Shown here in pieces: positions 3,579-37,907 of a DNA stretch of 37,907 nucleotides (positions within the stretch are counted from its first letter, which is position 1; every line of letters starts with the position of its first letter). The stretch spans positions 1-37,907 of the IMG/VR virus record IMGVR_UViG_3300008517_000278, one strand, 5' to 3'. A program made the position numbers and the translations under genes. The notes beneath the pieces were generated by a model. That model saw only the letters and a program-made list of their open reading frames with translations. It was not told the origin of the DNA and did not search any database. The DNA is from a virus.

Positions 3579-4253
3579 TCAATCCTTTAGCTCCATAACT
3601 TCTTGACAGCATCGTTTGGCTGCGATTTCACAATACCTTTCCTCTATTTCTATTCCTATAGAGTAGCGGTTGAGTTTCTTAGCACAGAAGCAAGTCGTGC
3701 CTGAACCGAGAAAGGGGTCGAGGATGGTCTCTTCATAGTCGGTTGATTTCATAATGAGATAGGAGATAAGCATCTCTGGTTTTTCCGTGGGGTGCTGTAG
3801 CACAGTTGGATGCACTCTTGGTATGGATATAAGGTTTGAATCCCTACTCCCTCGTAACTTAGCATATTTACGCTTACTATAAACTATAAACTCACACCTA
3901 CTTGCGTAATCATCCAAATTACCTGCAGTAGTTGAGCCCTTATCCCATACCAAGAGTCGCAGAGTGTTAAAACCTATCTGCCTTATTGATTGCCTTGTAT
4001 CGTCTAGGGATACTTCATTGGCAAAAACATAAAAGCTACCATTTTCTGTCAATGTGGCTTTACGAAGCCACTCAAAGGATAGCTTGTCATCCCCAGCAAG
4101 CCTAGCGAATTTAACAGAGCGATAGTTACTTTGATAGTTTATCCCATAAGGCGGGTCAGTCAGTACCAAATCCACCTTAACATCTAATTGGGGAAGTATC
4201 TCCCTACAATCCCCGTGATAGATTGTTACCCACTTATCTTGATAATATGCCTT
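3579..4253 (-). CDS. DNA adenine-N6 or cytosine-N4 methyltransferase (beta-class)
   Basis: The product methylates an exocyclic amino group in DNA using SAM. The catalytic motif IV DPPYGINY is near the N-terminus (about 34-41), and the SAM-binding motif I DPFLGSGTT follows near the C-terminus (about 187-195). That order defines the beta class, which includes both m6A and m4C enzymes, so the product base cannot be decided here. HPTEKP precedes motif I, as usual. I prefer the ATG at 4253 (224 aa), next to an AAGAGTAGAGGG purine run and starting the usual MxxYYQDKW beginning; an in-frame ATG at 4319 would add 22 residues, overlap the DUF5131 gene by 37 bp and lacks a ribosome binding site. Probably anti-restriction. 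Confidence 0.9.
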   Translation of the reverse strand, partial: KAYYQDKWVTIYHGDCREILPQLDVKVDLVLTDPPYGINYQSNYRSVKFARLAGDDKLSFEWLRKATLTENGSFYVFANEVSLDDTRQSIRQIGFNTLRLLVWDKGSTTAGNLDDYASRCEFIVYSKRKYAKLRGSRDSNLISIPRVHPTVLQHPTEKPEMLISYLIMKSTDYEETILDPFLGSGTTCFCAKKLNRYSIGIEIEERYCEIAAKRCCQEVMELKD

Positions 4254-4282
4254 CATCCCTCTACTCTTAAAAGATTGCTCTC

Positions 4283-5191
4283 TCACTTCGGCATTTCCTG
4301 TCTTAATACCATATCCCATTTAATACCAAACAAGGCACCAGACCTCGATATATAGAATGGTGACTCGTCCTTTGGTAATAAAGGCTTCAAGTTATCCTTC
4401 AGAAATACCTTGACCCCCGCCTTGTCCGCAGACTCGACAATCTCTTTTACCCACTCGATACGAGGCTGTGCTGTGAATAGCTTGCCGTAGCGCATTATTG
4501 ATAGAGTTTCAGGGGGGTATCTGTCAACAAGTCTCACCATTTCAGGTAATGTCCCCGTGCAAGCCCCATTGACGAGCCAGTTGATACCCCTCTTATCCGT
4601 CAATAGGTCTAAAACAGCCTTGCCTATACGTCCAAGAAGAGGCTCCAAGGAAAGAAACTTTATCTTAGCCGTAACTGAAGCCAGATTAGCCGAACCGTTA
4701 AGTGCCATTTCATTGTTCGTAGCCGTCACACCCACCCAGCAATTCTCAGGAAATTCCCATTGAGGAAGGTTCTGAGGTTGCTTTGTCAACGTATAAAACC
4801 TGTGCTGCGGGCAATCCCTCATTACCTGAAGCTCTTGTCTAGTCCACTCTTCAGGCCAGTAATCACCCATCCAGTCGCTCATATCATCGAGGAAGATACC
4901 AGTGGGCTTCTTAATGCTTCTTATCCTGTCAAGGCGTTCTGGCCAGAAGCGAGGATAGAAGGGGTCATCAAGTGGCTTTGCTCTATAAAATTCGTCATCA
5001 TAAACGCCAACTGGAAATATTTGATGGTTCAAATACCTCTGCTTCAATCTCCCATTCGCCAGCTTATAGGCATAGCAAGGAAAGCCACCGCCTTTGCACA
5101 ATCCGTTATCGTGGTTTAGGCAACCAGTCTTAGAATTAACTGTTATGCCCCTTGTTCCGTCCGGGTTGAGCACCCATTCAATTCCTGTCAT
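4283..5191 (-). CDS. DUF5131 / phage Gp37-Gp68 family protein
   Basis: This 302-residue protein matches the DUF5131 family (phage Gp37/Gp68), whose biochemical role is not established. Family features visible are the IEWVLNPDGTRGITVNSKTG start, an N-terminal cysteine cluster (C24, C32, C39, with FPCYAYKLA), the IFLDDMSDWMGD segment in the position of the usual N-S-M-S-D motif, FYTLTKQPQNL, GVTATNNE, FLSLEPLLG and a late AGVKVFLKDN block. The N-terminal cysteines have led to comparisons with radical-SAM folds; that is not demonstrable here. ATG at 5191 follows TTAGGAGGTAATT, an excellent ribosome binding site. It is directly upstream of the beta-class methyltransferase, so a nucleotide- or DNA-modification role is a reasonable inference. 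Confidence 0.85.
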   Translation of the reverse strand: MTGIEWVLNPDGTRGITVNSKTGCLNHDNGLCKGGGFPCYAYKLANGRLKQRYLNHQIFPVGVYDDEFYRAKPLDDPFYPRFWPERLDRIRSIKKPTGIFLDDMSDWMGDYWPEEWTRQELQVMRDCPQHRFYTLTKQPQNLPQWEFPENCWVGVTATNNEMALNGSANLASVTAKIKFLSLEPLLGRIGKAVLDLLTDKRGINWLVNGACTGTLPEMVRLVDRYPPETLSIMRYGKLFTAQPRIEWVKEIVESADKAGVKVFLKDNLKPLLPKDESPFYISRSGALFGIKWDMVLRQEMPK

Positions 5192-9040: not shown

Positions 9041-9192
9041 TTCTCTGCCCCCCACATAACCCAGCAGCCTTGCCTTGACATATCCTTTGAGATTTCCCCC
9101 AGGGTAAGGTTTCCGTACTCCTGGCAGAATAGGTCAAAGAGCCAGAACGCTTGACACGCCCTGCCTGCCACCGCTATAATTAGTTTATTCAA
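9037..9192 (-). CDS. Hypothetical 51-aa protein starting with TTG
   Basis: A 51-residue frame fills the gap between two clear genes. It starts with TTG at 9192, preceded by GGAAGGAGTAGGAAA, one of the best ribosome binding sites nearby, and ends in an ATGA overlap with the next gene. The product is mildly hydrophobic in its first half (LIIAVAGRACQAFWLFDLFC) with three cysteines; it might be membrane-associated. I do not recognise it. The signal plus exact fit between neighbours supports a real gene. Confidence 0.6.
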   Translation of the reverse strand: MNKLIIAVAGRACQAFWLFDLFCQEYGNLTLGEISKDMSRQGCWVMWGAEK

Positions 9193-10428: not shown

Positions 10429-10794
10429 TTAACCCCCTGCCTTTCTTCGTCCGGCAGTAGAATTACCCTCAGAAATTGTTTTCGCCTGAGAAACGCTCAG
10501 TCCTGTGGTATTTTTTGACCTAATAATTGATTTCTGGTTGCGATGTTGGGCAAGTCTCTTTGCCAGTTTTTCCCTTTGTTCTGGGGATAAAATTCTCGCT
10601 GGCTGTGGCATCCGTATTCTTTTCTTGGGAATGTGATATTCCTTGCCACCATAGCCATTGTTCATTGTCGGCTTGATTCCGAGCTTCTGTTCGATTTGCT
10701 TTTGCCAAGCCTTGTTGTAGGTAAATATCACAGCATCGGCAGGAGTTTCATCAAAGCTGATTAAGGTTTCCTTTTCTTCATTGCTTAATTGCAT
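10429..10794 (-). CDS. Conserved hypothetical phage protein, 121 aa
   Basis: This basic 121-residue protein resembles an unnamed phage family: an N-terminal NEEKETLISFDETPADAVIF block, TYNKAWQKQIEQKLG, NGYGGKEYHIPKKRIRMPQ and a C-terminal LSPEQREKLAKRLAQHR. No catalytic motif is seen; the basic C-terminal half suggests nucleic-acid binding. I start it at the ATG at 10794, which overlaps the integrase 3' end by 17 bp and has GGTTATGGAAG upstream. A longer frame (10848) would lie well inside integrase. Confidence 0.72.
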   Translation of the reverse strand: MQLSNEEKETLISFDETPADAVIFTYNKAWQKQIEQKLGIKPTMNNGYGGKEYHIPKKRIRMPQPARILSPEQREKLAKRLAQHRNQKSIIRSKNTTGLSVSQAKTISEGNSTAGRRKAGG

Positions 10795-11617
10795 CTTCCA
10801 TAACCTTCCCCGGACTATGCTTATGATGTAGTCTAATCGTATCTTCAACTGTCCAAGCTACGTAATGTTTCATTGTAGTTTTTATGTCAGCGTGTCCCAG
10901 TTGGAGCTGTAAACTCTTGGGGTCTCCACCTTCTTCAAACCAGAATTTACTAAAAGATGTTCTTAGAATTTGCGGTCCGAAGTGCTTACCTGTATAACCT
11001 ATCCTCTTGAGGAATTTCTTGACCACACCATAGAAACCATATTTAGTTAATGGTTTTCTGCCTTTGCCATAAAATAAAAAGCCATCACTGTGAATTGGTA
11101 GTGCTAGGAGTAAATCTCTAGCATATTCTGAAATGGGGACTATCCTATATCCTGTCTTACCGCTTACGATAATATAGTTGTCTTTAACATCTTCTCTTTT
11201 TAAGCCACAAGCCTCCCCGAGTCGTATAGCGGTATCAACAAATAGAGTGACGATAGCCCTATCTCTATTACTTGCTGTGCGTATTGACCATGCCAATAAA
11301 CTAAGTTCTGTTGGTGAAATTGTAGGTTGAATCTCTTTAGGCAATCGCGGCTTAGTAACAAGCCTCATAAAGTTGGGTTTTTTATAACGCTTTTCAGCGT
11401 AGTTGCCTAAAGCGTGCCAATACCTATAAAAAGTAGCAGCATATTGTGGATTGACGGTAGCAAGAAATTGCTGTATTATCTCTGGCCTTGGCGGGAATTT
11501 TGGGGATAATTGAGCTAGTCGCTTTCCGTAATACTCATGGTTTTTGAGGGTTATGGGTGAAACCCCCATGAGTTTGCGGTCAGCGATGAAGCTAATGAGA
11601 ACCTCCGTTGTCCTCAC
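10778..11617 (-). CDS. int: Tyrosine recombinase / phage integrase
   Basis: This 279-residue protein catalyses site-specific integration and excision, showing the phage is or was temperate. It has an N-terminal SAM-like core-binding domain (about 1-85) and the catalytic domain (about 95-265). Visible catalytic residues are R132 (TAIRLGEACGL), K154 (SGKTGYRIVP), R219, H242 (LQLGHADIKTT) and the nucleophile Y252 (MKHYV). At the usual H-x-x-R box the sequence reads Q-I-L-R (216-219), so the first histidine is glutamine. It starts with GTG at 11617 after AAGGGAGGCGAGAACA, a strong ribosome binding site. It lies near the beginning of the early operon. attP is not identifiable here. Confidence 0.95.
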   Translation of the reverse strand: MRTTEVLISFIADRKLMGVSPITLKNHEYYGKRLAQLSPKFPPRPEIIQQFLATVNPQYAATFYRYWHALGNYAEKRYKKPNFMRLVTKPRLPKEIQPTISPTELSLLAWSIRTASNRDRAIVTLFVDTAIRLGEACGLKREDVKDNYIIVSGKTGYRIVPISEYARDLLLALPIHSDGFLFYGKGRKPLTKYGFYGVVKKFLKRIGYTGKHFGPQILRTSFSKFWFEEGGDPKSLQLQLGHADIKTTMKHYVAWTVEDTIRLHHKHSPGKVMEDAIKQ

Positions 11618-23718: not shown

Positions 23719-26700
23719 TTAATCGCATCTATCTGTTCCGTATGCTGGCACAAGCCCTCTTAATCTCACAAGTGCAGCGTCTAGGTCTGCGTTCTGACAT
23801 CTAGCCTGAAGTCTAGGTGTGCCAGTCGGCAAGTCATCATATCGGTTAAGTAACTTCTCCTCTGAAATAGTCGGCACCTTGGTAAAGTCCTTCGGCTGAT
23901 TGCCCAAAACACCTTTCCAGACATCTTCGTAGTAATCCTCATGCTCCATCAAGAAGCGTTCCTGGTCATAGCCAGCGACAGGCATTTGGTAATATTCAAC
24001 ATAAAGTCCGATATATTTTTCGGCTACATCTGCTCCGTAGGCTTGCTTCGTGTAGTAAGCCTTGCCGAAATCAGTAATCCTCCCACGATTATCAAATAAA
24101 AGCCCGCGCCTTGCTTCCGCTCTCTGGGCATCATTGGAGATATAGTGTTCTGATTTCCTGTCTCCGTAGGCATCGTATAAGTCAAAATCATCCCTATACT
24201 CCACCTGAAGCCTCAAAACAGGCTCATTCCAGTCCTCGCCAGTATCGGTAAGCAATCCACTCTCCAATGCCCACTGGTGAGCCTCTCCATTGTCAATCAG
24301 CCAGAGTTTAGCCTCTGAGCTGCTGGCTCCATACTCGTCAACGATAATGCCTCTATCTACCCAAGCCTCAACAATATCTTCAGGAGTCGGGTTATCCTCC
24401 GTCCCTTCACTCAAAGCCTCAATACGCCTTATGTCGTTTCTGAATTCGGGGTTTTCTTCGTATAGTTCCTGAATGGCTGTGTCTCTCGCGGTTAAACCCT
24501 CGGGACCCTTGATTTCATTATCAAGTCCGCCATAAGCGTCCAATAAATCAAACAGTTCCTTATTCTTCAGTTTGAGCTTGGCAACCTCATCAAGCTCTCT
24601 AGTTATCATCGCATTTTCAGGTATGCCTAGAGATTTAGCGAGAGAGTCTATCTTATCCAAAGCATCCAGACTGTAAATGTTCGCCTTATCCCATAAAGCT
24701 AGTAGAGCGTTTTCCTCGGGGTGACTTCTCAGCCAATCTTCTCTAGGGTTAGCGTATAACTCAGGATGATTTATCAGGAATTTCGCCTTTCCGTCCTCAT
24801 TGAGATAGTGATATTTAATCAATAAGGAGTATTGCGCCTGAGTCATGTTACCTAGATAAGCGTTCCGCGTCCTCTCATCGCTATCAAAGGCTTTCAGTGA
24901 CTCTTCATCCCCGGAAGCGACAATCTTCTGCCGTTCCTGCCACATCTCATAATACTGTTTGAATGTCGTGCCTTCTTCAGGGTCGGCATTAAGAGAGGTT
25001 AAACGCTTATTCGGCAGTGATTCTATTTGTTCAATAATCTGCAATACCTGAGCGATTGACCTGATATATTCAGGAAAGCCTTTAGATTCGGTTAATTCGC
25101 TGGGATCAACACCCCTGAATTGCGAGGCTGTATCAGCCCAGAAGTCAGCTAGGTCATAGACTGGTTCGGTAATTCCATACCCAGTATTCTCAGGATACTT
25201 GGGAAGTCCTAGTTTAGCCCAGTCCTCACGCCAATCTCCAGTGTATGTTTGAACGCCCTCACCAAAGATAGCTGGGATAATAGCTATCATGCCTTCCCTT
25301 GTGCCTTCATCAAAAGCCTCCCATATATCTTGTACAGCGAAAGGAGCTATCCTTTGAATCCATTGCTCGGCATTAGTAAGGTCAACTGCAACGCCTAAGA
25401 AGTTACGCCCTGTCCAGAAATCCCATAGTATACTCGGTACAGGAGCCAATGAGCCTCTAAGGAAATTAGTTAATGTTTTGATAGGGTCTGCCTCATACTC
25501 TGCTCCTGTAACTGAAGATACGCCAGTGCCAGTTGCTAACCGGGTATAAAGCACAAGGAATTGTCTATACCCAGCCCAAGGGTCTATCCTCATATTGCCG
25601 ATTCTAATGCTCATAAACTCAGCATTGCGTGGGTCTTTTTCTGCTTCCCACCAGTCCATGAAGTCACCAAATAAAACCACACCAGAAATGAGAGCATTGG
25701 TTATCATAAAGTCTCGCCATGTTTCTTTCATTAGGCCACGGCTGAAGTGCCATTCTCCACCCCTTCTATAAATCCCTGTCAATCCTAGTGGGAAGAAAAA
25801 GCGTGCTAGCTTTGACCTGGCAGCGAAGAACATCGTATTGAGTATTGGACCCAACTTGTTATATTGTCCCAATGATGCCCTTTGCACCAAATTGCCAATT
25901 TGCTCTTGATAGATTGACATTTCCTTACGAATATCAACGGATTCACCTTCCTTCAACTTAATCTGCCCAGATGCTACTTTCTCGGCGTAGCGTATAACCT
26001 CTTTGTATTTATCCTTATACAATGTCCAGCTACCTACATTCAGTGGAGTTACAAAAATTCTCTCAAAAGGAGCTGTCACCTTCTGAGTTATTCTGGGGAG
26101 TAACCTTTCAGTAGTGGGATAGCCATATTCTTCAGCAGCACGCCATTGTGCTGTACCCTTCTTTACGCCCATTATCCTCAAGAAGTCAAAGCCAAATTCT
26201 TTTCTAATATCCTCATATAATTCCATCAATGGGTCTTGCATTATACGTTGCTGAATAGCTTCAGCCTCAGCCGTATTAAAAGACTTCCAGAACGCAATGC
26301 CCATTTGATAGGCAATATAAGGATGCCCACACATTAGATACTTGCCTTGCCTTGGGAATGAGGCATCAAAACTAGCCATGCCACCTCTTAGCATATTGTT
26401 TATATCAACTACATTCCATCCCAAACCCTTCAATACCCTGCTAATGGTTTGCTTTTCGCTGAGGGTAAACATTGGTGCTTGCTCAAAGGCACTATTAACT
26501 ATAGGGTCAATCACAACTGGTTGGAATTGCTCTTTTGCTCTTTTAGCTCTAGCCTCAGCCAAACCCCTAGCAGCCTCCATAGTCTCTTTTTGAAGGCGAA
26601 GCTGCTCCTCAGTCCTCTCCTCTGCTAACGCTTCTGGTGCAACATATTCCTCACCTAATCGTGGTTGCCCAAATACTGCACCTGGATAGTAAGCTGCTGG

Positions 26701-29700
26701 TGCTATAGGCTTATGCGGAAATACCCTGTCTTTAGCTATGGCTAACTGGAGTTTGTATTCCTCATTTGAGATAACACCATCCTTCAGAAGATTGTTAAGC
26801 TCGTTCCTTCGCTCCCAGAACCAGGCCTGAGCTATTCTTTTTACATCGTTTTCAGTAATCTCACTTAAAGGCTTTTCGAGTAGAATCCTATCCTCTTCAC
26901 TGATGGTTGACAGTTCCTTCAGCCAGTTTACCGTCTCTTGACTGAGGGAAACTTCGCCCCTACCAGTTTCAAGGTAGATTCCCTCGATTATCTTTGTTAA
27001 AGATTCCCCTCTGTCTAAAGCCTCTAATAGCTCTTCATCACCAATAAACACTCTGGCCAGCCTATCCCATGCAGAACCGCCATCAGGGAAGTATTTAGTT
27101 CCGATTCCTTTCACTCTAGGTATAGACTTGCCAGCTAGTGCATTGGTAAGTGCGGTATAGCCAGCCATGATTTCAGTCCATCCTTCAGGTTTGCCCTTCC
27201 AATAGTTAACGACTTTTGCAAACAGGACATTCCGCATCTCCTGAGTCAAGTCGTTGAAGTAATCGGTTGTAACATCGGGAAGCTTGCCAGTCATAAACAT
27301 CTGTTCTGCTGCCTTGATAGCCTCTTCGGGATTCATACCCTCGACTATCATAGCCTGAGCACTTTCACTGGCGGACTGTGCTCTTTGTGCAAAGACGTGC
27401 TTTCTTAGTTCAATCGCTGCTGCCCTCTGCATCTCAGCGTTAGGAGCTGCGACTGCATCTTTGAATAGCTCTATGGTTCGCTCTACCTGTCTTGGAGTTA
27501 ATTGAGTATTCGTAAGAGCGGGAATACCAGTCGTTATATCCTCAGCCTTAACGAGAGACACTGCGGGGATTTCAGGAGACATCTTTTGCCTTGCCTCTTG
27601 GTAAACCTTCAGCATCTCCTCAAGCTGCCTGCTTGTATATTCAGGGAAGGCGTTAGGTCTTATAGGGTGTCTCGCTAGTTCTATTCCCTTCCTTGCTGGT
27701 CTTCCCTGCCCTGGCAGAGAACGAATACCAAGCTCCTCAGATACTTGCCTTATCAGAGTATCAAGTTCCTCGACAATTTCTATACCATCAAGTTCTCGCA
27801 ACGCCTCTAATCTGGCAAGCTCCAAGCGAAGATTGCCCTTAGTTCCTAAGTCTTTGGGTAGCCTGCCCTTCTTTTCTAGTAGGCTCTTAATCTCAGAGAT
27901 TCTATCTTCAGTGACCTTAGAATTGTATTCCCTCAGCCTCAGATAGTCGTCAAGGCGGGACTGGACTAATTTCCCTCTAGCTTCAGGCCTTATTTCCTTT
28001 GCTGGCACTTCCTCTAGCATAGAAGGCTGAATCCCTGCCTCTGGCATACCTGTGGGGGTTTCGGGGATTGCAGGTGTAAATCCACCTTGACTTGCAGTTT
28101 CTAATAAACGCCCAAAGTCTGCTACACCCAACTTGCTTGAATAATACTCATTCATCCCTAGATGGTCTATGACCGCAGAGTGCAATTCCTGCTTCAATTC
28201 ATTAAACAAGATTAGTTTCTTGGAAGGGTTGGTCTCTTTTTGTATTCTCTTGATGATGCCCGCTATATTGTCAGCTACGTTTTTTACATACCAATCACCT
28301 TTGAATTTGACTTTTATCCCCTTTGTTGCAGTCTCTATATCTGCTACGAATTTATCTATTCTCGCAATCCTGTTAAGTAAAGCAGCTTCAGTCAAATCCC
28401 AAGTAGGTATTGTTATATCCGCATAAAGTTCAGATAGATTTTCCTCAAAAGATGTAACCTCCGCCATACCAGCTTCGGCTGTGGGGACTTCAGGGATAAC
28501 TGGAGTAAACTCTTTGATGCCTAATTTATTACCCGTATCTCTTACTGCCCTTAGGATATTTAGATATTCGTCACTCTCCCAACCAGTTACACCCTTTTCA
28601 ATATACCAGGCATAAGCATCAGCTAATACTTCTTCAGGCTTATTATTAAATCCAAAGGGATTATCAAATGTTGAACGAACCGATATAGATTTGCCTTTAT
28701 CTAATCTGAAAGGTTCGAGTAGAACTTGCCATTCCTCACCCTTCAACATCTCAGCAGCAACATCGTGTCCTAATTCATGCGTTAATAAGGCTTTTCTTTC
28801 CCCTGAATTAAGTTCAAAGAATTTGGGATTGATTGTGGTAATCCCACCCCTACGACTTCCTATCGCCTGTTGTTCTGTATTGAGTTTATAACCACTTATC
28901 CCCGTAATTTCAAATTGCTGTCTAGATATAGTTAATATATCCTCTGTAACCTCTAGTGTAACAGGCTTCCCCTTTGCAACCTCCTCCGCAACCTCTATAT
29001 CCTGTAAAATACTCTCAGGTAGAGTAGAAATCGTGGGTTCTACGCTGGGTTTTTCTACCTCGGGGTGCTCTTCATAATATTCTTCTTGTGCTGCCTCGAT
29101 AGCCTTAGAAAGTTCCACTTCGCCTTCGGGAGTCTTGGCTATCTCGTTGGCTGCCTGTACCTGAGCTTCTTCTTCTGTGAGCCCAGCTTTCTGAAAGTCT
29201 CCTACCAGCTTGTCATATTGCGCGCCTGTTTCCTGTGATAAACCCCCTCTGAATGTTTGAAACGAAGCTCCCCCACCGATAACACCAAACGGTAAGGATG
29301 CTATCACGCCTTGAATATAGGCATGGCTCACACCCTCCATAATAGATTGTGTTGCATCATAGTTTTTAAGGATAGTATTGTGAACCACCTGAGTGACTAA
29401 TTCCTCAACACCTTCAATCTGGGGAATAACAGCACCAGTAATAATTGCTCTAGCGAGTCGGCTTGCCGTACCTTTAAGGATTGTATTCCACATCGGCTTA
29501 ACTGCCTGTCCTATTGGCTTGAATATAAGTCCAATAAATGGCAAGTCTGATACTGTCTCAATTCCACCAACAGCCAGCCCATAAAGCCTGGCTGGGTTCT
29601 GGGCTTGATCGATTGGCACCCCCATGTCAACCAGTTCATCAATCATATTCCCAGCTTCAGGCATACCAGCGACTAACAATCCTACCGGTATTCCAACAGC

Positions 29701-30915
29701 AGGCGTAGCCACAGCCGATACAGCAACTATCGTTCCCATCACAGCCAGCGTGTAAGCCAGACTACTGCTAACGCTATAAGCGATATAGCCTGGGTCTAGG
29801 AATAAGCTGGGATTATCAAATGGACTTTCCAAATATTCAGCCTTCGGTGTCAGCTCGGGATGCTCAGTCCAGAATGTTTGTTGGTCTGCCTTTCTCCTTA
29901 AATACCCATCTATTGTATTCTGTAATGCGTTTTCATACGCTTGTTGTGCAGCTTCAAACTGAAACTCAGGGGGGATTGCAGTTGTATGAGTAGCCACAGG
30001 AAAGGGAACCTCTTTTGAAGGTAGAGACGGGGGATTCGTGAACAGGAATGTCTCTATGCCCTGCTTAAAACTAACAGCACCAGCAATGAATGGGTCCCAA
30101 AGATAATCCTTTGCCCAGCCTTCAGCCTCAAACTCTGGCACAACTGTTGGAGCGAATAACTCGTCTATATCTATATCGCTGAGATGAACAGTACCTCCCT
30201 GTCCATCATCAAAAGGAATCATTTTAAGAAACCTCACCATCTCCTCGGTTGGACCAATCTCCCGTATATCAGCAAGGAATCCTTCACGGTCTCGGTTCAT
30301 ATAGTCTATGACTTCGTTTATATCCTGCTGGGGAAACACAGCGCCGAAGACTTCCTCTTTCTCAAGCCGCTGCCGTTCCCTTAAATCAACCCACCCAGCA
30401 ACATCTAACTCTCCACCTGTAGCTTGGTATTCCCTGTATGCAGCTTTGCCTTCCTCATTCAGATTCTCGATTGTCAATGACCAACTGGGGACTTCCCAAC
30501 CTTCGGGAATAACTTGGCCTGTAGGCTCTGATAACCATGCCTGCATATCGGCCTCAGATAACTTCTGACCGGACGGAGAAATGTAATAGTTATCTTCCGT
30601 AATCTCCCACTTAGTAGGTGTAATAATGCTAGAAGTAAAGCCACCATTCCCTTCCATTGGTGTGAGTTTGAGCATTGCACCTTCTTGAAGTGCCAAGCCC
30701 ATCTCGGCAGCCTCGGAAGCGGTAAAGAATAACGGCTGTGTCGGGAATGTAGTCGTTAGCTGTCTCTGAGATATTGCTTCTGTTAGCTGTGGATACATCT
30801 CGCGGACATCAGCTAGAGATGTCCCATATTGCGACAATAGCCGTTCTATCTGTAGGTCTTTTGCCCTACGATATTTAGTTAGCAGGTCCTCTTCGTTTAG
30901 ATTAAATCCGTTCAT
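23719..30915 (-). CDS. Giant virion (ejected/polyvalent) protein with zincin motif, 2398 aa
   Basis: This single gene takes 19% of the genome. The product resembles the large polyvalent or internal ejection proteins of tailed phages. Features in order: polar helical N-terminus; hydrophobic, probably membrane-inserting segments (about 375-470, e.g. LAYTLAVMGTIVAVSAVATP); a zinc-peptidase motif HELGH (713-717) with a downstream EEVLAD (761-766) that could give the third ligand; long charged helical regions (about 950-1300); and a block at about 1640-1850 (RIGNMRIDPWAGYRQFLVL, FWTGRNFLG) like large-polyvalent-protein associated domains. I start at the ATG at 30915, overlapping the previous stop (ATGA) with GAGGG upstream; the 20-codon-longer frame (30975) lies inside that gene. 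Sited between portal and scaffold. Confidence 0.8.
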   Translation of the reverse strand: MNGFNLNEEDLLTKYRRAKDLQIERLLSQYGTSLADVREMYPQLTEAISQRQLTTTFPTQPLFFTASEAAEMGLALQEGAMLKLTPMEGNGGFTSSIITPTKWEITEDNYYISPSGQKLSEADMQAWLSEPTGQVIPEGWEVPSWSLTIENLNEEGKAAYREYQATGGELDVAGWVDLRERQRLEKEEVFGAVFPQQDINEVIDYMNRDREGFLADIREIGPTEEMVRFLKMIPFDDGQGGTVHLSDIDIDELFAPTVVPEFEAEGWAKDYLWDPFIAGAVSFKQGIETFLFTNPPSLPSKEVPFPVATHTTAIPPEFQFEAAQQAYENALQNTIDGYLRRKADQQTFWTEHPELTPKAEYLESPFDNPSLFLDPGYIAYSVSSSLAYTLAVMGTIVAVSAVATPAVGIPVGLLVAGMPEAGNMIDELVDMGVPIDQAQNPARLYGLAVGGIETVSDLPFIGLIFKPIGQAVKPMWNTILKGTASRLARAIITGAVIPQIEGVEELVTQVVHNTILKNYDATQSIMEGVSHAYIQGVIASLPFGVIGGGASFQTFRGGLSQETGAQYDKLVGDFQKAGLTEEEAQVQAANEIAKTPEGEVELSKAIEAAQEEYYEEHPEVEKPSVEPTISTLPESILQDIEVAEEVAKGKPVTLEVTEDILTISRQQFEITGISGYKLNTEQQAIGSRRGGITTINPKFFELNSGERKALLTHELGHDVAAEMLKGEEWQVLLEPFRLDKGKSISVRSTFDNPFGFNNKPEEVLADAYAWYIEKGVTGWESDEYLNILRAVRDTGNKLGIKEFTPVIPEVPTAEAGMAEVTSFEENLSELYADITIPTWDLTEAALLNRIARIDKFVADIETATKGIKVKFKGDWYVKNVADNIAGIIKRIQKETNPSKKLILFNELKQELHSAVIDHLGMNEYYSSKLGVADFGRLLETASQGGFTPAIPETPTGMPEAGIQPSMLEEVPAKEIRPEARGKLVQSRLDDYLRLREYNSKVTEDRISEIKSLLEKKGRLPKDLGTKGNLRLELARLEALRELDGIEIVEELDTLIRQVSEELGIRSLPGQGRPARKGIELARHPIRPNAFPEYTSRQLEEMLKVYQEARQKMSPEIPAVSLVKAEDITTGIPALTNTQLTPRQVERTIELFKDAVAAPNAEMQRAAAIELRKHVFAQRAQSASESAQAMIVEGMNPEEAIKAAEQMFMTGKLPDVTTDYFNDLTQEMRNVLFAKVVNYWKGKPEGWTEIMAGYTALTNALAGKSIPRVKGIGTKYFPDGGSAWDRLARVFIGDEELLEALDRGESLTKIIEGIYLETGRGEVSLSQETVNWLKELSTISEEDRILLEKPLSEITENDVKRIAQAWFWERRNELNNLLKDGVISNEEYKLQLAIAKDRVFPHKPIAPAAYYPGAVFGQPRLGEEYVAPEALAEERTEEQLRLQKETMEAARGLAEARAKRAKEQFQPVVIDPIVNSAFEQAPMFTLSEKQTISRVLKGLGWNVVDINNMLRGGMASFDASFPRQGKYLMCGHPYIAYQMGIAFWKSFNTAEAEAIQQRIMQDPLMELYEDIRKEFGFDFLRIMGVKKGTAQWRAAEEYGYPTTERLLPRITQKVTAPFERIFVTPLNVGSWTLYKDKYKEVIRYAEKVASGQIKLKEGESVDIRKEMSIYQEQIGNLVQRASLGQYNKLGPILNTMFFAARSKLARFFFPLGLTGIYRRGGEWHFSRGLMKETWRDFMITNALISGVVLFGDFMDWWEAEKDPRNAEFMSIRIGNMRIDPWAGYRQFLVLYTRLATGTGVSSVTGAEYEADPIKTLTNFLRGSLAPVPSILWDFWTGRNFLGVAVDLTNAEQWIQRIAPFAVQDIWEAFDEGTREGMIAIIPAIFGEGVQTYTGDWREDWAKLGLPKYPENTGYGITEPVYDLADFWADTASQFRGVDPSELTESKGFPEYIRSIAQVLQIIEQIESLPNKRLTSLNADPEEGTTFKQYYEMWQERQKIVASGDEESLKAFDSDERTRNAYLGNMTQAQYSLLIKYHYLNEDGKAKFLINHPELYANPREDWLRSHPEENALLALWDKANIYSLDALDKIDSLAKSLGIPENAMITRELDEVAKLKLKNKELFDLLDAYGGLDNEIKGPEGLTARDTAIQELYEENPEFRNDIRRIEALSEGTEDNPTPEDIVEAWVDRGIIVDEYGASSSEAKLWLIDNGEAHQWALESGLLTDTGEDWNEPVLRLQVEYRDDFDLYDAYGDRKSEHYISNDAQRAEARRGLLFDNRGRITDFGKAYYTKQAYGADVAEKYIGLYVEYYQMPVAGYDQERFLMEHEDYYEDVWKGVLGNQPKDFTKVPTISEEKLLNRYDDLPTGTPRLQARCQNADLDAALVRLRGLVPAYGTDRCD

Positions 30916-31052
30916 GCTAACCCTCGCTTGAAGAGTATATGCCAGCAGAGTCGCCATCTTGCCGATAATGGCCACTGCTTGACTGCCCTCACATACTCAA
31001 GGAAGTTTCTCCGGCTATATTTTCTAATCTTTTTTACTACTCTGCCGTTCAT
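30912..31052 (-). CDS. Small conserved-type phage protein, 46 aa
   Basis: The 46-residue basic, aromatic protein has FLEYVRAVKQWPLSARWRLC, which fits a recurring small phage protein found near terminase or portal genes (typically R-F-L-x-Y-x-R-A-x-K-x-x-P-x-R-x-R). It overlaps both neighbours by ATGA junctions. Function unknown; may be a minor head component. The overlap pattern on both sides strongly supports that it is translated. Confidence 0.7.
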   Translation of the reverse strand: MNGRVVKKIRKYSRRNFLEYVRAVKQWPLSARWRLCWHILFKRGLA

Positions 31053-33468: not shown

Positions 33469-34767
33469 TTAGAACTGCCATGCTTCAGCCTCCTCCTTTT
33501 CTACTGCCCTGTCTGGCTCATCCAGGTCTGCTATGATGTAGCGTTCTGCTGCCATCAGGTGATAGTGGGATTCGTTCTCTATTTCATCTATAGGTCGGTA
33601 TCTGTCATCGAGCTTTCGGGAAAATGACTGCTTCTCATCGAGGTAGCCCAAGAGGTCATCGAATACCATAATCCTGTTGAGCTTGTGCCAGGCGAAGACT
33701 TTGAGGATTTGCGTCTCAACCTTGTGGTTCATTTCCGGGGGTTCGCTTATCGGCCAACCGTGAGCCTCATAAGCCTGCCTGATTTCCTCTTCCTGGTGGC
33801 TCCCCCCCACCCTCTTCACCACATTGTAGCCTTTGGTTATCCTCTTAAACTCCTGGACATGCTCATAAACGGATTTATTCTCTTGGGGCAAATACTCCTT
33901 AAAAGCCCAAAGTATGCCCGTTCCCGGGTCCTCAGCGAAGAAGATGGCAGAAGGGTTGGAGCCACCGAAGTCATGCCCTACATAGATTAGCCAGTTATCG
34001 GGTATCTCAAAGCGTTGCTTCTTGCAATGCCTCGGGTCAAATGATGAATAGATTAGCCCAGGGGGAATGTCATATCTCCCGCGATAGAACATATTGAACT
34101 TCCAGCTTGGGAGTTTGGTTTGGACTCTTTCAAACTCAGCCTTCGGGAAGGCCGGGTTCATTGTGGAGTCGAACATGATTACATCATAGTCAGGGTCTCC
34201 CTCTTCCCATCGGTCGTAAACTTCAATCTTGAACCAGCCCAGCCCGTAAAGTGTGGTAGTAAATAGAACTCTTCCCTGCTGAATGGAAAGACGCCTTTGC
34301 ACTGCCTCCCAGGTGTCTCTCCTGAACTGCTTTTGCCCAGCTTCATCAAGCCATGCTGCCTTTGCCTCAGCAGATTCAAGGGATTCAGGCTTGGTGGCAC
34401 TGCCGAAGATTACCCGGATATTTTGTTTATAAAACTGGAATACCCTAGCACCTGTGTTTGTTTGGCTATACTCGCCCAGGTGTAGCAGATCCCGGAACAA
34501 ATGGAGGAACTCCGGCAGCATCCTGAGCTCTAGCAGAGGGAAGGTAGCAGTGACGGCCAGATAGTCCCCGGGCCCGCAGTTCTTTATCTCCCTGTAGAGC
34601 CAATCCGGACCAAAACAAGTCTTCCCCCCCTGAGTGCCGGCCTGCATAGCAATAAATCTTTTATCGCTCTGCCATGTCCGAGACTGCCCGGGGTGGAAGT
34701 TCAGATGTATCTCTTTGTCTATGAGCTCCCGGTAGGGTTTAACTTCCTTTGCTACTGCTTGAACCAT
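33469..34767 (-). CDS. terL: Terminase large subunit
   Basis: The 432-residue motor protein packages and cuts phage DNA. The ATPase domain is shown by Walker A AGTQGGKT (43-50) and Walker B AAWLDEAG (about 134-141). The nuclease domain begins with VGHDFGGSNPSAIFFAED (about 256-273), carrying the first catalytic aspartate, and a later DDLLGYLDE region supplies more acidic residues. Length and order are normal. ATG at 34767 follows AGAGGACAAGA and overlaps the small terminase gene by 29 bp. Packaging type (cos, pac, headful) cannot be read from this; an HNH gene upstream hints at a cos-like process, by analogy. Confidence 0.93.
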   Translation of the reverse strand: MVQAVAKEVKPYRELIDKEIHLNFHPGQSRTWQSDKRFIAMQAGTQGGKTCFGPDWLYREIKNCGPGDYLAVTATFPLLELRMLPEFLHLFRDLLHLGEYSQTNTGARVFQFYKQNIRVIFGSATKPESLESAEAKAAWLDEAGQKQFRRDTWEAVQRRLSIQQGRVLFTTTLYGLGWFKIEVYDRWEEGDPDYDVIMFDSTMNPAFPKAEFERVQTKLPSWKFNMFYRGRYDIPPGLIYSSFDPRHCKKQRFEIPDNWLIYVGHDFGGSNPSAIFFAEDPGTGILWAFKEYLPQENKSVYEHVQEFKRITKGYNVVKRVGGSHQEEEIRQAYEAHGWPISEPPEMNHKVETQILKVFAWHKLNRIMVFDDLLGYLDEKQSFSRKLDDRYRPIDEIENESHYHLMAAERYIIADLDEPDRAVEKEEAEAWQF

Positions 34768-35331: not shown

Positions 35332-35576
35332 CAGCACCCCTTAAAAATACAAGCCATAGCAGTTATAAAACCTATCAGCGATAACACGCCGAAACCTAAG
35401 CCCGCCTTGTAATAGTGAAGTTCCCTCCTCATCTTTTCCTCTTTGCCGTAAATCTTGTTTATCCCACGCCAGTCAGTATTACGGAATGAAAAACCATCCC
35501 CCCAGCCTATTACTAGGGCATGCCACTCCTGATGTTCGTTGAGAAATTCCTTTAGCCACTTAAAAGGTGGTATCAT
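35331..35576 (-). CDS. Small membrane protein, C-terminal anchor, 81 aa
   Basis: The product has an 81-residue polar N-terminal part (WLKEFLNEHQEWHALVIGWG) and a C-terminal transmembrane segment (about 57-78, GLGFGVLSLIGFITAMACIF). Tail-anchored topology with most residues on one side is likely. It overlaps the 92-aa membrane gene by four bases, so the two are likely to be made together. It may be a lysis accessory or other membrane factor; I do not recognise it. Confidence 0.65.
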   Translation of the reverse strand: MIPPFKWLKEFLNEHQEWHALVIGWGDGFSFRNTDWRGINKIYGKEEKMRRELHYYKAGLGFGVLSLIGFITAMACIFKGC

Positions 35577-35851
35577 GTTACTAACTTATTCACAATATCC
35601 TGGGAAGACCAGCCGAACGTGAAGGCAAATACAAAGACATATTCACTCGAAACTGGGAAACTCGGCAGTATCAATATAGTAGCTATGAGGGCAACGACAA
35701 GGTTAAATACCAGCGTCCAGACATAGCGGTTTTCCCATTTGACTTTCTGCCCTGCCTTTGCTGCCTGGCTGTTCTTCTTCAACCAGGGAAATACAGCTCT
35801 CAGAAAACAGCCCAGGAATATACCGAGTGCTACGATGATTTCAGTCTCCAT
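35573..35851 (-). CDS. Small multi-span membrane protein, 92 aa (holin candidate)
   Basis: The 92-residue protein shows three hydrophobic stretches (about 5-24, 45-64 and 69-82: LGIFLGCFLRAVFPWL, WTLVFNLVVALIATILIL, YVFVFAFTFGW) and a short polar C-terminus (SSQDIVNKLVT). Size and topology would suit a class I holin, and as the first gene after the late promoter-terminator it is placed where a lysis gene could be. However, no endolysin lies next to it and the C-terminus is not strongly charged. ATG at 35851 follows GGGGGTAAAC. Confidence 0.6.
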   Translation of the reverse strand: METEIIVALGIFLGCFLRAVFPWLKKNSQAAKAGQKVKWENRYVWTLVFNLVVALIATILILPSFPVSSEYVFVFAFTFGWSSQDIVNKLVT

Positions 35852-35867
35852 GTTTACCCCCTAAATG

Positions 35868-35889
35868 AAAAAACCACCCTCGTGGGTGG
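35868..35889 (-). terminator. Intrinsic terminator just downstream of the late promoter
   Basis: CCACCC (35874-35879) pairs with GGGTGG (35884-35889) around a 4-base loop, followed on the minus strand by TTTTTTCATTT. The stem is GC-rich and the T-run is perfect. Starting from about 35924 it would end transcription after roughly 55-60 nt, before the first late gene. Confidence 0.85.
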
Positions 35890-35905
35890 CTCTAAAATGA
35901 CTTGA

Positions 35906-35921
35906 GGGCGTTAAGACGCCC
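35906..35921 (-). promoter_or_regulatory. Leader hairpin between late promoter and terminator
   Basis: GGGCG (35906-35910) and CGCCC (35917-35921) form a 5-bp stem with a 6-base loop within the first 20 nt of the predicted late transcript. Outer bases (CTTGA/TCAAG) are also complementary but one arm lies in the -10 region. It is placed like a pause or antiterminator-loading hairpin. Confidence 0.6.
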
Positions 35922-35930
35922 ACTTTGTCA

Positions 35931-35959
35931 AGTATAATTTCAATATGTTTGTTTGTCAA
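35931..35959 (-). promoter_or_regulatory. Late promoter, near-perfect sigma70 consensus
   Basis: On the minus strand TTGACA (35954-35959), a 17-bp spacer and TATACT (35931-35936) form an almost ideal promoter, with an expected start at about 35924. It is the only strong promoter I see in front of the packaging and structural genes. It is directly followed by the hairpin at 35906-35921 and the terminator at 35868-35889. Confidence 0.85.
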
Positions 35960-35973
35960 GTTTTGCATTTTGA

Positions 35974-36405
35974 TTATGCTTTCGTAATCATTTTCCTGTA
36001 TCTTTTCTGTCTCTGCCAGGCATTGAAGTCCATCGCCTTCCGCTTCCTTCCCTTGAGATACATAAGGATTGCCCGAGCTCCATTGCTCAGGTTACTAAGA
36101 GTCCTGCCATCCTCAATCTGTGTTACCAATAGTTCACCCCTGTTTGGCGTTTTGGCTAATCTAGACTCCAGTTCGCCGATGATAAGCTCAGGCTTAACGA
36201 AAGAGGCTTCAGACTTGAATTGCCTATTACCTACTGGATCCTCCGCTTGGCCCTCCTGAATAGGCCAATGACCAGCCCTTAATGTGTCGGCATTAGCCAG
36301 AATCCACAGGCATTGATAAGGGCAGAAGCGGACTTCACTGTAATTCCACCAATCAGGCGGTGCCTTGCAGTCGTGCCAGTTCTTGCACTTCTGGCAATTA
36401 TTCAT
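35974..36405 (-). CDS. Cysteine-rich protein upstream of the late promoter, 143 aa (antiterminator candidate)
   Basis: This 143-residue basic protein has an N-terminal cysteine cluster (C4, C7, C13, C28, C32; CQKCKNWHDC and RFCPYQC), a likely zinc site, a linker, and a C-terminal basic helix-turn-helix-like region (about 103-140: GARAILMYLKGRKRKAMDFN, RQKRYRKMITKA). I do not recognise the family. Its stop lies 15 bp upstream of the late promoter -35 box, exactly where lambda-type phages place their antiterminator gene Q relative to pR'. A role as late-gene activator or antiterminator is inferred from position, zinc site and basic HTH. ATG at 36405 follows AGGGGAGC. Confidence 0.6.
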   Translation of the reverse strand: MNNCQKCKNWHDCKAPPDWWNYSEVRFCPYQCLWILANADTLRAGHWPIQEGQAEDPVGNRQFKSEASFVKPELIIGELESRLAKTPNRGELLVTQIEDGRTLSNLSNGARAILMYLKGRKRKAMDFNAWQRQKRYRKMITKA

Positions 36406-36589
36406 GCCATGCTCCCCTGCTTGGCTTTTTCATCAGCCTGTCTATCTCCTCCAGGCTTTCGAGCTTAGGTTCGACCTTGATAGATCGCTTCTTGCTCCCG
36501 GGCGGTATGAAGAAGTGACCAAAGCGCTTTCTATAGTATCGAGCCAGCTTCCTCTTTTCCTTTATTGACAGAAAGAACCATAGCTCCAT
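36398..36589 (-). CDS. Small basic protein, 63 aa
   Basis: The 63-residue product is basic, with an aromatic N-terminus (MELWFFLSIKEKRKLARYYR) and IPPGSKKRSIKVEPKL in the middle. It looks like a DNA- or RNA-binding mini-protein; family unknown. It starts in a TGATG overlap with the LuxR-type gene, with AAGGGGTGGTTC upstream, and overlaps the cysteine-rich gene by 8 bp. These three genes therefore form one translational unit just before the late promoter. Confidence 0.65.
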   Translation of the reverse strand: MELWFFLSIKEKRKLARYYRKRFGHFFIPPGSKKRSIKVEPKLESLEEIDRLMKKPSRGAWHE

Positions 36590-36822
36590 CAGAACCACCC
36601 CTTACGGATAGCGTAGGTAGTAGCGCGGACCCTATTTCTAACCCCTAACTTCTGGTAGATATGCTGGACATGGTTTTTGACTGTCTGGTGAGATATTCCC
36701 ATGTGGCAGGCGATTTCCTTGTTGGACCAGCCCCGGCACATGTAGCGCAGAACCTCAGTCTCCCTTCTGGTGAGGGGTCTCCGTCTTATCCCCAGGATCC
36801 GCTCTAATAGCTCTCTAATCAT
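36589..36822 (-). CDS. LuxR/GerE-type HTH regulator, 77 aa
   Basis: This is a stand-alone LuxR-type DNA-binding domain: LTRRETEVLRYMCRGWSNKE followed by IACHMGISHQTVKNHVQHIY and KLGVRNRVRATTYAIRKGW (about 17-75), which covers the whole family domain with its conserved E-x-E-V-L, N-K-E-I-A, S-x-x-T-V-K-x-H and KL residues. It lacks any sensor domain. It should bind DNA as a dimer and probably regulates late transcription. An intrinsic terminator lies immediately upstream of the ATG at 36822, and no Shine-Dalgarno is visible, suggesting attenuation or unusual initiation. Confidence 0.85.
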   Translation of the reverse strand: MIRELLERILGIRRRPLTRRETEVLRYMCRGWSNKEIACHMGISHQTVKNHVQHIYQKLGVRNRVRATTYAIRKGWF

Positions 36823-36826
36823 CGTA

Positions 36827-36874
36827 ATAAAAAAGGGCAGAAGATAAGAGATTTACTCTTAAACTTCCGCCCTT
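36827..36874 (-). terminator. Intrinsic terminator abutting the LuxR-type gene
   Basis: AAGGGCAGAAG (36833-36843) and CTTCCGCCCTT (36864-36874) form an 11-bp stem with one mismatch pair, with AGAG/CTCT pairing in the loop. On the minus strand it is followed by TTTTTTATTACG and then the ATG of the LuxR-type gene. It should end early transcripts or attenuate entry into the regulator gene. Confidence 0.85.
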
Positions 36875-36879
36875 CTGAT

Positions 36880-37641: not shown

Positions 37642-37907
37642 TATCAACCTCTCGTATAACTTTAATCAGTTCAAACGCAACTTGGGGAACTATGGCGTTC
37701 CCGAGGCATTGCACCCTTTCTTTACGATTTTTGATTCCTGTTGCAACTCTTGGGATGCTTGGTTCGGTATCGAAATATCCGTCCAGCCAACAGGAAAGCC
37801 CATTAGCCAGTCCTCCCAGTTCGGGTTCAACTTCCCACCAGTTACCCTGGGAAGGGGCTTGCCTCTCTTGCCATATAATTCCTCGTCCGTCATCTGGCTC
37901 TGGTCTG
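37628..37907 (-). CDS. DNA (cytosine-5) methyltransferase, C-terminal part (continues at position 119 / 1)
   Basis: This completes the gene begun at 1-829. Read from the right edge, the frame passes through the repeated 119 bases and ends at the TAA at 37628-37630. It contains the C-terminal motif RVQCLGNAIVPQVAFELI, the usual motifs IX-X that close the SAM pocket. Merging the redundant bases gives 990 nt and 329 residues without frameshift. The HNH gene starts inside its last codons. Confidence 0.93.
   Translation of the reverse strand, partial: RPEPDDGRGIIWQERQAPSQGNWWEVEPELGGLANGLSCWLDGYFDTEPSIPRVATGIKNRKERVQCLGNAIVPQVAFELIKVIREVDNEQV
37789..37907. repeat. Terminal direct repeat, right copy (circular closure)
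   Basis: Identical to 1-119. It lies inside the methyltransferase gene, so a real, biologically fixed terminal repeat at this place is less likely than linearisation of a circular assembly. Confidence 0.95.

Follow-up and report, generated by a model that had tools for sequence, protein, structure and literature searches.

The window, i.e., the whole stretch of DNA analysed here, is the virus record IMGVR_UViG_3300008517_000278 of 37,907 bases. A 119-bp direct repeat is found at its ends (positions 1-119 and 37789-37907), so that the record is probably one complete circular map, with a length of about 37,788 bp. The presence of an integrase gene (10778-11617) suggests a temperate phage. On the plus strand, a perfect consensus promoter (TTGACA-18-TATAAT) is located at 9151-9180, and more strong promoters occur on both strands near 11.9-12.1 kb, adjoining the integrase gene; perhaps these promoters constitute a lysogeny or early control region. 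The genes for the major head protein and for the terminase large subunit (33469-34767; PHROG 2, E 1e-22) are encoded on the minus strand, downstream of the promoter-terminator unit described below. For most other late genes of the window a family match is absent. The late block also contains an open reading frame of 2418 amino acids (23719-30975, minus strand), for which a PHROG search gave no match. Relatives of the terminase with 37-50% identity are found mainly in Chloroflexota genomes (Herpetosiphon, Anaerolineae, Caldilineae), which makes a Chloroflexota host of the phage likely.

The late promoter, its leader, and the operon upstream

According to the original prediction, the minus strand carries TTGACA-17-TATACT, a leader hairpin, and a terminator in front of the late genes, and all three were found in place by direct reading, scanning, and folding. 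The -35 hexamer TTGACA (35954-35959, minus strand) is identical in 13 of 13 leaders including those of the relatives introduced below; of the -10 hexamer TATACT (35931-35936, minus strand) the relatives keep only TANNNT. Both hexamers were read directly and recovered by a promoter scan, in which the promoter with its 17-bp spacer scores 11/12; the expected transcription start lies at about 35924. The last T of the -10 hexamer is also the first base of a second TTGACA (35926-35931, minus strand), 28 bp after the first one. This second TTGACA is overlapped by the sequence CAAAGT (35922-35927, minus strand), which is situated just before GGG. The corresponding CAAWGT precedes GGG in 7 of the 13 leaders and has few matches to TATAAT; as a possible sigma pause (-10-like) element it is a weak candidate.

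The leader starts with a 5' hairpin (hairpin 1; GGGCGU-CUUA-ACGCCC, 35906-35921, minus strand), which was identified by folding. It is followed by the conserved segment TCAAGTCATTTTAGAGCC (35888-35905, minus strand), marking the boundary where relatives carry tRNAs or extra terminators, and by the intrinsic, tR'-like terminator CCACCC-ACGA-GGGTGG-T6 (35868-35889, minus strand; read, scanned, and folded), which is composed of a stem-loop (35889-35874) and the T6 tract (35873-35868). Counted from the expected start, the terminator stem begins at about 35 nt and the U-tract ends at about 57 nt, in agreement with the distance of approximately 55 nt given originally. The leader RNA folds into hairpin 1 plus the terminator hairpin (-26.4 kcal/mol, z -2.6). 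The pairing of promoter and terminator is beyond chance. When the promoter has to score 11/12 or better and, no more than 120 nt further on, a perfect stem of 6 bp or longer with 5 or more T has to follow, the window contains one such pair and 60 dinucleotide shuffles contain none; with the promoter threshold lowered to 9/12, 0.05 pairs are expected in each window.

The first late gene (35573-35851, minus strand; ATG at 35851) encodes a hydrophobic product of 92 amino acids without significant family match in Pfam or PHROG, which would be holin-like, judging from its hydrophobic stretches and its position. Its Shine-Dalgarno (SD) sequence AGGGGG (35862-35857, minus strand) starts 5 nt after the U-tract, and a similarly close SD sequence is present in L011, L016, L024, and L032. 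Since this leaves no room for another promoter, the first late gene would have to be reached by readthrough.

Directly upstream of the late promoter lies the operon of p143. The gene for this protein of 143 amino acids (35974-36405, minus strand) ends 15 bp upstream of the late -35 hexamer. It is preceded by the gene for the small protein p66 (36398-36598, minus strand), for which tblastn identified homologues in L002, L005, and L011, fragments being present in L018 and L021, and by the first gene of the operon (36589-36822, minus strand), coding for a LuxR/GerE-type helix-turn-helix (HTH) protein of 77 amino acids (PF00196, E 7.5e-22). The operon is itself headed by a second, upstream terminator with a long stem and a T6 tract (36829-36876, minus strand), which is even stronger than the late terminator. 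Comparable segments of -33 to -37 kcal/mol with T5-T7 are found in the window, L002, L005, L011, L015, L016, L020, and L021, and L060 likewise has a terminator before its p143 operon. The start codon follows the U-tract at a distance of about 6-12 nt in the window (ATG at 36822) and seven relatives, and further away in L060; in the intervening stretch (ATTACGATG) no SD sequence is visible. From the location of this terminator directly before the operon, it appears that the p143 operon also needs readthrough, and the upstream and the late terminator together suggest two gates in series.

Conservation among relatives and alternative explanations

Relatives were collected by terminase, p143 protein, and DNA-pattern searches, and 12 further distinct leaders were obtained (L002, L005, L011, L015, L016, L018, L020, L021, L024, L031, L032, and L060). 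The search for conservation in related phages thereby bore out the arrangement: in all 12 relatives the unit stands behind a p143-type gene and consists of TTGACA, a TANNNT -10 hexamer, and a terminator, followed by a small open reading frame. At the start of each leader a G-run and a C-run are able to pair, if weakly so in L011 and L032. The -10 hexamer is poor in most relatives; that of L016 is TACCCT, at a spacing of 17 bp. A counterpart of the late terminator is present in every relative; because automatic parsers miss several of them, which contain U-G pairs or 5-bp stems, the relatives' terminators were read by eye and folded.

The leaders of some relatives contain additional elements. 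L002 and L005 possess one additional terminator each. Between hairpin 1 and the terminator, a tRNA is located in L018 (763-836), L031 (488-563), and L021 (4783-4854), and a degenerate tRNA-like stretch in L015 (approximately 4680-4750). ARAGORN called tRNA-Met in L018 and L031, and Rfam gave matches in L018, L021, and L031; where a type was called, it is Met (CAU). A terminated leader would release a tRNA from these units. The view of the original prediction that the short leader RNA is a by-product thus fits the leader of the window, and is to be qualified for the four relatives with a tRNA or tRNA-like stretch, where the terminated RNA may have a use. In L020, the distance between promoter and terminator is increased by a structured insert (approximately 4490-4620; >100 nt) that contains several strong hairpins and has no match in Rfam. 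Module exchange among these phages seems to be common; the DNA of the window and of L002 is about 85% alike from the terminator onward, while the two p143 proteins are 35% identical.

Several further loci were considered and rejected. L047, a metagenome-assembled genome (MAG) of Anaerolineae, has promoter-terminator units upstream of late-like genes (approximately 3850-4340) and was not counted as a relative because it lacks p143; this distant terL relative may represent an independent or older form. Apart from L047, the more distant Chloroflexota relatives showed no convincing promoter-terminator pair in front of terL. The pattern matches in L058, L059, and L062-L066 are without a p143 relative and were set aside, and those in L026, L028, and L030 are coincidences in coding sequence.

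In 9 of the 13 leaders, the second TTGACA is found at the -10 hexamer or one base further on, 27-31 bp from the first. In the window, L016, L018, L024, and L060 its first base is the last T of the -10 hexamer, at a distance of 28 bp. A script applied to 667 kb of strand (the window and its 12 relatives, lambda, and 19 distant loci) matched only these leaders, lambda pR', and one other site, on the plus strand of the window. The lambda record reads TTGACT, 17 bp, TAAATT, with a second TTGACT that begins on the last T, 28 bp from the first. By this identical placement, the second TTGACA is the counterpart of lambda's -35-like element.

In comparisons with the window, identity is higher over the first 78 nt of the leader than at synonymous third positions of the p143 gene beside it (0.79 versus 0.52 for L018, 0.79 versus 0.45 for L016), with the leader identities being somewhat flattered by alignment gaps. 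In hairpin 1, two base pairs are changed on both sides, and 82.5% of the cells pair, which is above any slid version; because the compared sequences are related, this lends modest support to a conservation of the pairing. The segment after the -10 hexamer shows 0.72-0.93 identity within the window, L015, L016, L018, L024, and L021, and the conserved block extends from about -7 to +38. The spacer between the -35 and -10 hexamers lies outside this block. In most pairs, its identity is near that of shuffled spacers (0.47 +/- 0.09), exceptions being window-L018 (0.83), L016-L024 (0.94), and L011-L031 (1.00). L015 and L018 have p143 proteins that are 94% identical and spacers that are only 0.55 alike, and L021 combines an L002-type p143 (79% identity) with a window-type start region. 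The near-shuffled spacers and the mismatch between L015 and L018 do not speak for a conserved Q site in the spacer, with the reservation that binding sites may be private to each protein. Loading in the start region is possible, as is an RNA signal. Two further candidates within the leader were discarded: a pairing of the 5' arm of hairpin 1 with the terminator (GUGGG/CCCAC) is not conserved, and the inverted repeat ACTTGA/TCAAGT across hairpin 1 was not taken as one site, given that L031 retains TCAAGTCA, and L032 retains ACAAGTCA, without TTGACA.

The position of the conserved block outside the spacer, the maintenance of hairpin 1 with some compensating changes, and the fact that L015 and L018 keep the leader despite their different spacers would also be in line with a leader RNA that acts as antiterminator in cis, in the manner of put RNAs, through hairpin 1 and its conserved tail and without a dedicated phage protein. 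This is considered unlikely: put RNAs are much longer than the single 16-nt hairpin found here, which is weak in L011 and L032, the leader matches no Rfam family, and a constitutive cis element would make the tandem terminators pointless unless it were regulated. Intrinsic terminators leak, and the genes on both sides of the unit are co-directional, so that early readthrough is a real risk. The late terminator might mainly be an insulator that blocks early transcription, and late expression might result from partial readthrough and a rising template number without any antitermination. Such an insulator would have no need of the promoter upstream of the terminator, nor would it account for the second terminator that two relatives have added or for the lambda-like second TTGACA; it, too, is regarded as improbable.

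The tRNAs of L018, L031, and L021 and the degenerate stretch in L015 raise the question of whether the unit is mainly a gene for a small RNA or tRNA, with the late genes served from another promoter or by an activator such as the LuxR-type HTH protein; the poor -10 hexamer of most relatives could indeed mean activation. Yet the leader of the window is without an RNA gene, no promoter fits between its U-tract and the SD sequence of the first late gene, scanning of the late block (35.8 to 13 kb) gave no other minus-strand promoter with a score of 11/12 or more, and several relatives lack the HTH gene, all of which renders this explanation very unlikely. Attenuation, in which a ligand, the ribosome, or another signal would decide whether the leader forms the terminator or an alternative fold, could be read into a short leader with two hairpins before a gene, but it is hardly credible given that in most leaders the hairpins form together without competition, that the terminator has a pairing probability of 0.87-1.0 in nine leaders (the folded L021 segment ended before the terminator), and that the leader has no Rfam match.

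The candidate factor p143

The original prediction had pointed to the genes at 35974-36822 as a possible source of the antitermination factor. Among these, p143 is the best candidate, while the LuxR-type HTH gene is optional, being absent from several relatives (no tblastn match in L005 and L011). The p143 gene recurs beside the leader wherever upstream sequence is present, as a C-terminal fragment in L024, a partial gene in L031, and a divergent homologue in L032. In L005 (4164), the homologue is without an ATG, GTG, or TTG start at the expected place, and it likely starts with an ATA overlapping the upstream stop codon. The protein contains a CxxCxxWxxC motif near the N-terminus (C4, C7, and C13, with C28), which is presumably metal-binding, as well as conserved C-terminal helices.

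Searches of p143 and its homologues against Pfam and PHROGs gave no match for p143 itself, and there is no sequence match to the known Q families PF03589, PF06530, and PF06323. Comparison of the p143 profile with profiles of lambda Q and E. coli QuuD yielded nothing, and comparison with PDB sequences nothing credible. An AlphaFold model of moderate quality was obtained with 11 sequences (pLDDT 70, as opposed to 54 with 4 sequences), and it has no Foldseek match with E <= 0.001 in the PDB or a viral library. The single p143 sequence retrieved no relative from viral contigs, an alignment query being needed to find relatives; the alignment gave no relative in 84,980 host species genomes, and L002 p143 and the L032 homologue gave none in 50,697 phage records. 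By these comparisons, p143 falls outside the known Q protein families.

In the divergent L032 homologue (about 25% identity to L002 p143, E 2e-5), a complete HTH is preserved, which has a match to PHROG 79, "anti-termination protein Q-like" (E 0.0013, and 2.8e-5 for one genome), and a weak one to sigma region 4. These matches hint at, but do not prove, a descent of the family from a Q-like or sigma-region-4-like protein. The HTH in which they lie seems to have been lost from the other p143 proteins. The known Q families have no significant sequence or structural similarity to each other (PMC7171158); hence, the missing match of p143 is not a strong argument against such a function. By virtue of its position p143 is our leading guess for the antiterminator, i.e., a positional analogue of Q.

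Proposed late switch and comparison with known systems

In summary, the promoter-terminator unit exists as predicted, is conserved, and has a layout like that of lambda. With a promoter directly followed by a terminator, late genes are made only if something lets RNA polymerase run through, and we estimate at roughly 60% the probability that processive antitermination, working like lambda Q at pR'-tR', is the late switch. The pR'-tR'-like switch of the original prediction is well supported by the geometry, its conservation, the extra terminators of the relatives, the second TTGACA at the 28-bp spacing of lambda, and the downstream order of a membrane protein and then the terminase; no Q site is apparent in the spacer. 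In the proposed scenario, host RNA polymerase would start at about 35924 and, if unaided, would stop after approximately 52-57 nt. At the late stage of infection, the polymerase would acquire a phage factor in the promoter-proximal region, p143 being the most likely one. There, as in lambda, the second TTGACA would probably enable sigma region 4 to retain the early complex during loading. The loaded polymerase would ignore the late terminator and others, so that one transcript would span the late block. The upstream terminator would delay p143 itself, resulting in a two-step timer.

More tentatively, p143 could represent a new, non-homologous Q-like family of phages with Chloroflexota-like hosts, loaded in the start region via the second TTGACA and the hairpin and not via a spacer site, with two gates and with a slot in the leader from which a tRNA could be expressed before the late genes. 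If true, the lambda-style late switch, which has been worked out in detail in proteobacterial phages and elements, would also run a distant phage lineage and would do so with an unrelated protein. The promoter-terminator geometry, including lambda's -35-like element, would then be a recurring solution that can be used to locate novel antiterminators in uncultured phages, and p143 would be a small, testable protein.

HK022 put shares with the present leader a structured RNA at the start of the transcript. The put RNAs, however, belong to early promoters and comprise about 70 nt with two long stem-loops (PMC9378689), in contrast to one short 16-nt hairpin at a late promoter. A leader hairpin much like hairpin 1, GGGGCGTTGAGACGCCCC, is present after quuD in the E. 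coli K-12 element DLP12 (L069, 3374-3391), in a region common to 36 coliphage records; this likeness may be a coincidence.

In Pseudomonas aeruginosa, the terminator lies 54 nt after the start of the AlpA-controlled alpB promoter, and the other AlpA target has two predicted terminators (PMC7969949). The distance from start to terminator is, thus, similar, but AlpA is an HTH protein with a site in the spacer, and no family match between AlpA and p143 was found. CAAWGT shares A2 and T6 with the sequence CACGAT at the AlpA-controlled promoter (PMC9371919). GafZ of the Caulobacter gene transfer agent is an antiterminator of a phage-like late cluster that is unlike Q in sequence and fold (PMC11150451). 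In this lack of likeness to Q it resembles p143; it differs in working together with GafY and IHF and in having the terminator after the first gene. The sites of Q, AlpA, and GafZ all lie in the spacer between the -35 and -10 hexamers, unlike the conserved block described here. Phage 21 pR' has a similar geometry, and the weak match of the L032 homologue to sigma region 4 recalls the sigma-region-4-like HTH fold of 21Q (PMC6606751). Its known site, a direct repeat between the -35 and -10 hexamers, is not seen in the present leaders, and p143 is without a match to phage 21 Q (PF06530).

As compared with lambda itself, the late leader is shorter (194 nt in lambda, about 57 nt here), homology to Q and a clear spacer site are missing, and the -10-like pause hexamer has no clear equal, CAAWGT being the best candidate. 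The 5' hairpin of the leader and, ahead of the Q-like operon, the second terminator are additional features of the window. The -35-like sequence is a cis element that lambda Q needs and that the late promoters of other lambdoid phages lack (PMC6606751). In lambda, pR'-tR' likewise places a late promoter and a terminator before the lysis and packaging genes, and the Q gene lies directly upstream of the promoter, in the position held by the gene for the candidate p143 in the window. The order of Q-like gene, promoter-terminator unit, small membrane protein, and terminase resembles that of lambda.
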